From Candidatus Uhrbacteria bacterium CG10_big_fil_rev_8_21_14_0_10_48_11 (GTDB lineage: Bacteria; Patescibacteriota; Patescibacteriia; GWA2-46-9): DNA of 33,445 bases. Location: the NCBI GenBank assembly GCA_002793855.1, contig PFET01000010.1, positions 1 through 33,445 on the forward strand, read 5' to 3'. Below are positions 26,391 to 29,881 of this stretch, piece by piece; within the stretch, counting starts at the first letter, position 1, and the number at the start of each line of letters is the position of its first letter. Position numbers and translations under genes: made by a program. Under the pieces are notes generated by a model. That model did not search any database. It was not told the DNA's origin and saw nothing but the letters and a program-made list of their open reading frames with translations.

Positions 26391-26515
26391 TGTTTTGAAG
26401 AAGGGGAAGTGCATCCAAGGAATCCTGCATGGGGAAGTCCCGAGTAAAAAACCGAGGACTCCTTCGCGCCAGGACACCACGCTTGTCGTGGATGCACTTC
26501 CTCTTTCGCAAAACA
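26391..26515 (+). ncRNA. long hairpin, possible small RNA
   Basis: The ends pair in three blocks: TGTTTTG (26391-26397) with CAAAACA (26509-26515), a perfect 13-bp block GGAAGTGCATCCA (26405-26417) with TGGATGCACTTCC (26489-26501), TCCTG with CAGGA, and AGTCC with GGACT near the tip. A small CCACG/CGTGG hairpin sits on the 3' side of an internal loop. This gives a rod of about 125 nt, like 6S or SRP RNA in outline, but the conserved SRP tip sequence is absent. It may be an RNA gene or a mobile palindromic element. Confidence 0.4.
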
Positions 26516-26557
26516 GATTACCCTATCACAGGTAGCCATTCCTGTCAAGCACACCGT

Positions 26558-28003
26558 ATGCTCCAGCACCGGGCACTCACCCACAACACCGTCGTCCAAA
26601 CGCTAGGAAAAATCCTGAGCGTTATCATTGGCTGGGCGACAGTGCTCGCTATGACAAACTATCTTGGCGCGGCAGGGTTTGGTTCGTACACCATCATGAC
26701 CGCGTACCTACAGTTTTTTGGCGTAGCGGCAGATCTCGGTTTAGTATTGGTAAGTTCCCAACTTTTTGCCGAACGTGCTAACGACCGAGAACGTATCTTT
26801 GCCAACCTCTTGGGTTTTCGACTTACAACAAGTGCAATCATTCTCGTTTTTGCTCCTTTCTTCATTTGGCTCTTTCCCTATTCTGCCGTTATAAAAACCG
26901 GCGTCGTTATTTTGACGCTATCGTTTCTGTTCGTCGCGTTGCTGCAAGTGTTCACCGGCTTGTTTCAGCAGGCACTTACGATGTGGCGTTCGGTTGCCGG
27001 AGAGCTACTTGGTCGAGCGGCACTGCTGGCATTTGTTCTAGCTGCGATTTTTGAACAGCGAGGTATTTTGTTCGTCGTTATCGGCGTTACTGTCGGCAGT
27101 TTTCTCAATCTTGGTCTCGCGGCGCTGTTGAGTCGTGGTCTGGTACGTTTGCGAGTGGCGTTTGAGAAAGAGTACTGGCAGTTAATTTGGCAGCGGTCGT
27201 GGCCGATTGCTCTAGGTGTCGTATTCAATCTTGTCTACCTTAAAGCGGACACTATTATTCTGTCGTTTGTGCGACCGGAAGCCGAAGTAGGTGTGTATGG
27301 GGCGATGTATCGGGTACTTGAGGTGCTTATTGCCTTCCCTACTATGTTTGCCGGTATCTTGCTGCCGGTTCTTGCTGGTGCTTGGGCGGCTGAGCGGTAC
27401 GAAGAGTTCCGCCATACCGTTAGCGAATCGTTTACTGCAATTGTGTCGGTTGCTTTACCGCTGGCAGTCGGCATCGCAATGACCGCCCCGCGCATCGTCG
27501 GTTTTTTGGGAGAAGATTTTGTTCGGCTTGGTACTGACGTGTTGCGCCTACTTGGGGTTGCAACCGCCATTATTTTTGTTGGTACGTTTTTTGGTCACGT
27601 CATTGTGGCGATGAACAGACAGCGCTCGATATTGTGGGCATATGCCCTTACCGCCCTCCTTAGTCTTGTTGGGTACCTCGTTGTCATTCCAGTTGCCGGC
27701 GCCGTCGGTGCGGCTGCAGTTACGGTGGCGGTCGAATTATTTATTGCGCTGCTGCTTTATTACTATGTTCGTCGCTACAGTTTGGTATCACTTCTTTTCC
27801 GTTCCCTTGTTCCTGCATTTGCTGCCAGTTGTGGGATGGCAACGTGGTTACTGGTTGCCAGTTTTTTACCTACTCTATTTTTTATCCTCTCAGCGATGCT
27901 TATCTATGGTGCGCTGCTTTACCTTTTTGGCGGTTTCCCTCGTGCCCTTGTTGAAGAGATTTTTTCTTTTTCTCGCCGAGGTGACAACAACCGTGTCGAG
28001 TAG
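26558..28003 (+). CDS. polysaccharide flippase (MOP superfamily, Wzx/RfbX-like)
   Basis: About 481 residues with 12-14 membrane segments over the whole length. The start HNTVVQTLGKILSVIIGWATV followed by TNYLGAAGFGSYTI is typical of polysaccharide-synthesis flippases, as is IILSFVRPEAEVGVYGAMYRVLEVL in the middle. It would move lipid-linked glycan repeats across the cytoplasmic membrane. The frame opens at 26429, but that part lies in the long hairpin and has no family likeness, so the ATG at 26558 is chosen. The ligase gene follows 33 bp later, a common functional pair. Confidence 0.9.
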   Translation: MLQHRALTHNTVVQTLGKILSVIIGWATVLAMTNYLGAAGFGSYTIMTAYLQFFGVAADLGLVLVSSQLFAERANDRERIFANLLGFRLTTSAIILVFAPFFIWLFPYSAVIKTGVVILTLSFLFVALLQVFTGLFQQALTMWRSVAGELLGRAALLAFVLAAIFEQRGILFVVIGVTVGSFLNLGLAALLSRGLVRLRVAFEKEYWQLIWQRSWPIALGVVFNLVYLKADTIILSFVRPEAEVGVYGAMYRVLEVLIAFPTMFAGILLPVLAGAWAAERYEEFRHTVSESFTAIVSVALPLAVGIAMTAPRIVGFLGEDFVRLGTDVLRLLGVATAIIFVGTFFGHVIVAMNRQRSILWAYALTALLSLVGYLVVIPVAGAVGAAAVTVAVELFIALLLYYYVRRYSLVSLLFRSLVPAFAASCGMATWLLVASFLPTLFFILSAMLIYGALLYLFGGFPRALVEEIFSFSRRGDNNRVE

Positions 28004-28024
28004 GCAATCAGGGCTTTTCAGCGC

Positions 28025-28030
28025 TATACT
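28025..28030 (+). promoter_or_regulatory. -10 element just before the ligase start
   Basis: TATACT ends 6 bp before the ATG at 28037, so transcription would start at the ATG itself (leaderless). The -35 region is poor. Confidence 0.35.
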
Positions 28031-28036
28031 ATTTAT

Positions 28037-29656
28037 ATGCTGTCAGCCCTCATAAGTAGCTATCTTGTTCTCTTCGCTTACCTTACCTACCGTTCGCCAC
28101 GGTTGGCCCTCGCTACTTTGGTAGCAGTACTGCCGTCGTATCTAATTCGTTTTACTGTTTTTGGAGTGCCAGCAACATTACTCGAGGTAACCATTTGGAC
28201 TTTTGCGTTTATATGGTTTTTGACGGCGTACCGTCAGCGAGGTGGATTTCGTCTGCTAAAACCTGCACAAGCAGTTTCAAAAAACAATCCGTTTCATCCT
28301 TATTTTTTTCCAATCCTCCTCTGGCTGACGGTTGCAACGGTGGCGGCAGTCGTTTCACCAAACCCAGTAGCGGCACTTGGGGTATGGAAGGCGTACTTTG
28401 TAGAGCCACTACTTATTTTTTCAATCGCGATAGTTGAGTTTGTGGAGGCAAAAGAACGACGTTGGCTCGTCTATGGGCTTGGCGTGGCTGCGTTAGCAAT
28501 TGCGCTTGGCGCGTGGTTTCAAAAAATTACCGGACTTTTCATCCCGGAGCCGTATGCAAGCGCGCTTCCTTTAAAAGTAACAAGCTTCTTTGCCTACCCA
28601 AACGCCGTTGGTCTTTTCTTGGCGCCGGTTATCGCTCTGTACGCGACATGGGCGTTCTACAACGCGCGTAATAGTTTGCGACTTCTCTGGCAAGCGATTG
28701 TTGTCATTTTTGGCATTGGTGCCATTGTATTTTCTATGACCAAAGGCGCGTGGATTGGTGTTGTTACTGGTATTTTGTTTGGTGCCTTTTTTGCACTACG
28801 CGGTCGTCATCGCATCGCTCTCTTTGCTGTTGGCGTTATCGCGTTACTCGCGGTGTTAGTGCTTCCGGTTACTCGTCAGACAATTATCGAACAGGCAACC
28901 CTTCACTCTCCATCAGGCAAAATGCGTGTGGCGGTTTGGCAAGAAACGATGGCGATGCTCACCGCTCACCCTGTTGTGGGGGCTGGTCTAGCAGGATATC
29001 AAATAGCCGTTGCGCCATACCATCAAGACTGGCGGCCGGAAGTTACCCCCTACAAAATAGAAATTTTTCTCTACCCGCACAATGCCTTTTTAAATGTCTG
29101 GGCAGAACTCGGCATTGCCGGGCTGCTTGTTTTTTTCTGGTTACTCTTTGCGTTCTTTCGTCTAGCGTGGGATAGGCGCGGGCAAGCGTTAAGTGTCGCG
29201 GCAATGGCAGCAATGGTGGCACTGCTCGTTCATGGGTTGGTTGACGTGCCGTACTTCAAAAACGATCTTGCGTTTCTGTTTTGGATACTCATGGCAATTT
29301 CGCTTTTAGAGAGTCTTCGTGTCCATGTTCTCCATGTTGGTGAAGATTCTTTTTCGGCAATTTCACGTGGCGCTCGGCAGGTTGAAGCGCGACTCCTCGA
29401 CCGACGTCATCGCGCAATTAATGTTGGCGATATATTGCTTTGCTACCCACACGAAAATTCGTACGAGTGCGTACGCGCCGAAGTGGTAGAGCTCACCCCA
29501 AAAGAAACATTTTCAGAGCTCTTGGCAACCTATCATCCGGCTGAACTAGGGTTTGAAACAGAAGCACACGGTCTGGCAACGTTGCGTCAGCGCTATAGCG
29601 AAGAAGACGAGCAGTATTTGGGCGTTGTGGGTATTCGTTTGCGCGTCGTTCGCTAG
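28037..29656 (+). CDS. O-antigen ligase/polymerase (Wzy/WaaL type) fused to an ASCH domain
   Basis: 539 residues in one frame. Residues 1 to about 424 have ten or more membrane segments and the ligase signature YPHNAFLNVWAELGIAGLLVFF near 345, as in the Wzy_C family that joins or polymerises lipid-linked glycans at the outer face. From about 426 the sequence changes: VHVLHVGEDSFSAISRGARQ, VEARLLDRRHRAINVGDILL, FSELLATYHPAELGF and YSEEDEQYLGVVGIRLRVV. This follows the ASCH domain from end to end, including the G-x-(K/R)-x-x-E-x-R motif, and lies after the last membrane helix. ASCH domains bind RNA or nucleotides in the cytoplasm. The flippase gene precedes it. The fusion is unusual. Confidence 0.85.
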   Translation: MLSALISSYLVLFAYLTYRSPRLALATLVAVLPSYLIRFTVFGVPATLLEVTIWTFAFIWFLTAYRQRGGFRLLKPAQAVSKNNPFHPYFFPILLWLTVATVAAVVSPNPVAALGVWKAYFVEPLLIFSIAIVEFVEAKERRWLVYGLGVAALAIALGAWFQKITGLFIPEPYASALPLKVTSFFAYPNAVGLFLAPVIALYATWAFYNARNSLRLLWQAIVVIFGIGAIVFSMTKGAWIGVVTGILFGAFFALRGRHRIALFAVGVIALLAVLVLPVTRQTIIEQATLHSPSGKMRVAVWQETMAMLTAHPVVGAGLAGYQIAVAPYHQDWRPEVTPYKIEIFLYPHNAFLNVWAELGIAGLLVFFWLLFAFFRLAWDRRGQALSVAAMAAMVALLVHGLVDVPYFKNDLAFLFWILMAISLLESLRVHVLHVGEDSFSAISRGARQVEARLLDRRHRAINVGDILLCYPHENSYECVRAEVVELTPKETFSELLATYHPAELGFETEAHGLATLRQRYSEEDEQYLGVVGIRLRVVR

Positions 29657-29794: not shown

Positions 29795-29881
29795 GGAAGG
29801 GTGGCTGAGTGGTCGAAGGCGCCGCTCTCGAAAAGCGGTAGATCCGCAAGGGTCTCGAGGGTTCGAATCCCTCCCCTTCCG
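29795..29881 (+). tRNA. tRNA-Ser(CGA)
   Basis: Class II tRNA of 87 nt. Acceptor GGAAGGG/CCCTTCC, discriminator G as usual for serine, anticodon stem CCGCT/AGCGG with loop CTCGAAA (anticodon CGA, codon TCG), a variable arm of paired GATCC/GGGTC type, and T arm GAGGGTTCGAATCCCTC. CCA is not encoded. Confidence 0.96.

Follow-up and report, generated by a model that had tools for sequence, protein, structure and literature searches.

The window analysed here, that is, the whole stretch of 33,445 nucleotides (contig PFET01000010.1), is contig 16 of a Candidatus Uhrbacteria draft genome of 891 kb in 16 contigs. On its forward strand, an ORF at 28037-29656 starts with ATG and encodes 539 aa without any internal stop, exactly the uninterrupted frame described in an earlier note on this DNA, and reading of the ORF confirmed that a ligase part and an ASCH part share this single frame of 539 codons. 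Upstream of it lie DUF3048, HSP20 and Wzx-type flippase genes, the last of which (26429..28003, forward strand; Pfam Polysacc_synt 6e-17, also supported by synteny with L061) ends 33 bases 5′ of the ligase start codon. The order DUF3048-HSP20-Wzx-ligase is the same in L061, a locus of the sister genus. A tRNA-Ser (cga) gene follows downstream at 29795..29881 (forward strand) and is found downstream of the L061 ligase as well, but there the tRNA has a dissimilar sequence and is separated from the ligase by two other ORFs, thus this synteny is weak. Since the SBP gene used in the downstream comparison is on a different contig in G001, the nearest genome compared, synteny supports the upstream side only. 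Reading by eye revealed a TATACT-like sequence at 28022-28036, directly 5′ of the ATG of the ligase, and no obvious ribosome-binding site, hence the start may be leaderless.

The membrane part of the protein (residues 1-425, 28037..29311, forward strand) was assigned to the WaaL-fold Wzy_C glycan ligases/polymerases by Pfam and by the structure model. Wzy_C (PF04932) matched residues 222-367 (28700..29137, forward strand) at 5.4e-20 and 72.1 bits against a curated cut-off of 31.7, while NCBIfam gave only sub-cut-off matches for the fused protein, to IctB and RfaL. This part was confidently predicted in the full-length model (pLDDT mostly >90), with WaaL (7tpg) as the best PDB fold match (E 3.4e-8, TMt 0.67); the sequence profile search against solved structures returned only noise and did not reach WaaL. 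The signature PHNAFLNVWAELG, by which the membrane part had originally been recognized as a Wzy/WaaL-type ligase, occupies residues 347-359 (29075..29113, forward strand), and its His348 opens the H[NSQ]x9Gxx[GTY] pattern. P347 and G359 are invariant and H348 is near-invariant in the alignment of the ligase family, and the original assignment holds in Pfam domain, fold and motif alike. In WaaL 7tpg, the key residues are the Und-PP-binding arginines R191 and R265, and H313. R297 and H348 are present in the window ligase, both being near-invariant across the family, and residue 180 (28574-28576) is a Lys, which is Arg in all 45 of the 45 aligned relatives; no sequence match to 7tpg was found. 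Judged from the alignment, the Lys180 change may touch substrate binding, and the membrane part may be altered by it.

In the full-length model, the last membrane helix reaches approximately residue 432, so the ASCH domain starts at once after it, as had been proposed. A large loop (residues 276-349) situated between helices carries the family motif and is followed by three helices, and the loops 254-256 and 379-383, both basic, are on the same side as the C-terminus. The three helices after the large loop, together with the basic loops on the C-terminal side, suggest that the C-terminus is inside. Accepting the modelled helices, the ASCH tail would be cytoplasmic, the side the earlier note had given it, and the large loop extracytoplasmic.

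The C-terminal ASCH domain (residues 426-539, 29312..29653, forward strand) was identified by both Pfam and its predicted fold. Using the whole protein as query, Pfam ASCH (PF04266) matched residues 432-538 at 1.8e-4, above the curated cut-off, and residues 426-539 alone gave 5.6e-6 and 27.4 bits (cut-off 21.2). The latter match spans positions 1-102 of the 103 profile positions, which means that the domain is complete, and the claim of an entire ASCH domain of about 114 residues proved correct. An ASCH profile that includes the window sequence itself matched 29318-29650 (forward strand). The tail, for which hardly any relatives were aligned, was poorly predicted in the full-length model. Residues 426-539 were also modelled alone by AlphaFold, from an alignment that included one viral relative. 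This model had a mean pLDDT of 88, and its top 15 Foldseek matches were all ASCH proteins, among them PH0355 (TM 0.83-0.88), PF0455, PF0470, an Enterococcus ASCH protein, YqfB and ZmASCH.

The fold is that of an ASCH domain, and its sequence departs considerably from the family. A GxKxxxxR motif has been described as conserved among ASCH proteins (PMC5615036). The corresponding octapeptide of the window domain (GARQVEAR, 29369..29392, forward strand; GxKxxExR in the family according to alignment A1) retains the Gly and the final Arg and has Arg in place of the Lys. At this position, Gln is found in the two closest relatives, L033 (35% identity) and L036 (32% identity, the closest on the tree), yet both are ASCH proteins by profile, which indicates that the Lys is common in the family and not required for membership. 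The core retains E25, R27, L28, G39, D40, F67, Y95, G104 and I108, whereas K32 and R33 are replaced by R and H. In total, 9 of the 24 well-conserved columns are changed, K22 and K32 among them, compared with 0-4 in typical members. Its end branch is the longest in the tree, about seven times the median (3.48 vs 0.5). Such divergence suggests either that the function shifted after the fusion or that the constraint on the domain is weak. The extreme case would be a tail which was joined by a deletion, is no longer selected and is now drifting. The long branch, the unusual composition, the number of changed columns and the fact that the fusion is a singleton are consistent with such decay, but the frame has remained fully open over 114 codons, the fold prediction is good, the domain retains 7 of 8 nearly invariant positions and a divergent subgroup (L054, L056 and L059, only these three) deviates as much as the window domain, all of which make decay rather unlikely. 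YqfB, an ac4C amidohydrolase with the same ASCH fold as the tail model, was considered as a functional counterpart. It needs Lys21, Thr24 and Glu74 (PMC9599836), and the places of Lys21 and Thr24 would be occupied by Arg and Glu in the window octapeptide if the two octapeptides are aligned. Since these two members of the triad are missing, hydrolysis of the YqfB type by the window domain is unlikely.

As a sequence, the fusion is real: both domains score over their curated cut-offs and lie in one frame. The last in-frame start before the ASCH core is the ATG at codon 419, within the last membrane helix, and no in-frame ATG, GTG or TTG was found after it up to codon 444. Having no start codon of its own, the ASCH core can be produced only as part of the fused protein, and the loss of a stop codon alone cannot explain how the two parts were joined.

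The fusion was sought in 57 relatives, 381 genomes of the class and the 80 best loci of genome contigs. Ligase matches occurred in 326 of the 381 class genomes and ASCH relatives in 27 (the window's genome and 26 others), the latter mostly as separate small genes. The loci read contained 113 ligase matches, including duplicates and the window, which represent about 100 distinct ORFs. The same ligase-ASCH order was found neither in these approximately 100 ORFs nor among the matches listed in the 381 class genomes, which for the ligase were the best-scoring ones, so the expectation that it would be conserved in related lineages was not borne out. The related ORFs continue for at most 37 residues beyond the region matching the ligase part and have no ASCH domain, no ASCH was detected in their flanks by the ASCH profile, and in the loci read none of the ASCH genes adjoined a ligase. 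The closest ligase, L061 from Ca. Uhrbacteria RIFCSPLOWO2_01_FULL_47_25, is 52% identical, lacks ASCH and appears to be the same as that of G001. The ligase frames of G294, G113 and G360 are longer through 5′ extensions only, and the G116 ligase (L171:288-1946, reverse strand) continues C-terminally for about 110 residues beyond the last helix, a stretch that had no Pfam match and is not ASCH. Because the window's own domain escaped the Pfam ASCH search of the phylum, absences in that search were not used. A phage origin of the domain was also considered and rejected: tblastn gave no match in phages, viral contigs gave none with the window ASCH as query, and the alignment of free ASCH sequences retrieved a single distant relative from a viral contig (L176).

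These data also bear on the possibility that two distinct adjacent genes were merged by an error of sequencing or assembly, which a single draft genome of 16 contigs and relatives having the ligase alone might suggest. However, such an error would have to have removed both a stop and the start of the ASCH gene, the upstream synteny holds, GC and GC3 are similar on both sides of the join, and none of the ligase relatives read has a flanking ASCH. The pattern expected for an artefact, two adjacent genes divided by a stop in relatives, was not seen; the ligases of the relatives lack ASCH, and free-standing ASCH genes are found elsewhere. We thus regard an artefact as quite improbable.

Elsewhere in Patescibacteria, the long ASCH frames read carry other enzymes, not Wzy_C. 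ASCH lies inside LeuRS (L149:674-3241 and L215:1624-4452) and inside other class I tRNA synthetases (L208:1498-4092, L214:363-2975 and L207:643-3378), that is, in class I aminoacyl-tRNA synthetases of five Patescibacteria genomes, four of them detected by Pfam over the cut-off and L207 by the ASCH profile only. Our literature search found no description of ASCH inside class I aminoacyl-tRNA synthetases, and these insertions appear to deserve more attention than the ligase fusion. GNAT acetyltransferase-ASCH fusions (L162:436-1815, L166:460-1818, L169:442-1818, L211:674-1474 and L210:250-1068) recur in several Patescibacteria, often near a second, free ASCH gene, and may recall cytidine acetylation chemistry. 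Further examples are an ASCH-inorganic pyrophosphatase-GrpB protein (L146:1486-2775), a histidine phosphatase-ASCH protein (L144:940-1842) and an ASCH-RNase H protein (L150:1492-2304). The attachment of ASCH to so many unrelated enzymes in the phylum indicates that the domain is promiscuous and readily joined to partners.

This promiscuity is relevant to the regulatory role suggested in the earlier note, according to which the cytoplasmic ASCH domain would bind a nucleotide, a modified nucleoside or RNA and thereby change ligase activity, so that the surface glycan answers an internal signal. The physical linkage right after the last helix, the ASCH fold with most core residues retained and the precedent of WadA, in which a GT121 ligase carries a GT25 domain (PMC10920833), speak for such coupling, and a nucleic-acid signal might control ligation, the linkage being the evidence for it. 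On the other hand, the fusion is present in none of the relatives read, the signature Lys is replaced, the active site is expected across the membrane from ASCH and no coupling path is visible. Nothing found supported the proposed regulation of glycan ligation, as the fusion occurs in one genome and its promiscuous ASCH domain is the fastest-evolving in the family sample. Regulatory coupling is accordingly unlikely, and it is very unlikely that a cytoplasmic nucleoside or RNA signal controls surface glycan assembly in this ultra-small bacterium, which would be the first such link described.

As no relative examined shares the fusion, it is most likely a chance event of one lineage, not a new signalling system. 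We consider it probable, with some reservation, that the protein arose by an in-frame fusion specific to one lineage, that of a Patescibacterium close to Ca. Uhrbacteria, in which an ordinary WaaL-fold Wzy_C enzyme tethers an essentially independent PH0355-type ASCH domain; the occurrence in a single genome, the long end branch and the changed ASCH columns including K22 and K32, which may mean decay, and Lys180 in the ligase count against it. According to this explanation, the fusion would have placed ASCH where the last membrane helix ends on the cytoplasmic side. As for the membrane part, its most likely activity is that of its unfused relatives, the transfer or polymerisation of a lipid-linked glycan, which would be supplied by the Wzx-type flippase of the preceding gene. 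The tethered, essentially independent cytoplasmic ASCH domain probably binds nucleic acid or a nucleoside like other ASCH domains, with an activity that is possibly weakened or changed. Topology, the binding ability of ASCH and the independence of the two parts are what we infer from the data. The significance of the fusion is in showing that ASCH, already present on many soluble Patescibacteria enzymes, is able to become attached to a glycan enzyme of the membrane as well; only proof that the tail controls this enzyme would give the fusion greater importance.

Among known systems, the window protein resembles WaaL/Wzy_C (PF04932; CAZy GT121 and related polymerases) in its Pfam domain, the 7tpg fold, the H[NSQ]x9Gxx[GTY] pattern and, at the level of the locus, the adjoining Wzx-type flippase. 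It differs from them by the extra 114-residue cytoplasmic domain, and from solved WaaL by lacking a sequence-level match; by fold and Pfam it is called here a ligase/polymerase. The predicted fold of the tail is similar to the PH0355/PF0455-type ASCH proteins (PDB 2z0t and 1s04, TM 0.74-0.88), and 2z0t is matched at 2.5e-30 by a profile built from the window ASCH together with free relatives of it; unlike these proteins, the window domain is joined to a membrane enzyme, and its signature Lys and K32/R33 are changed. No paper reporting ASCH fused to an O-antigen ligase was found in the literature search, so the ligase-ASCH architecture appears to be undescribed, in line with the first reading of the sequence, which likewise knew of no such system. 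The nearest precedent for an O-ligase with an added globular domain is WadA, a GT121 O-ligase with a GT25 domain; the domain added there is a glycosyltransferase acting in the same pathway and occurs in several genera (PMC10920833), whereas that of the window protein is an ASCH domain and a singleton.
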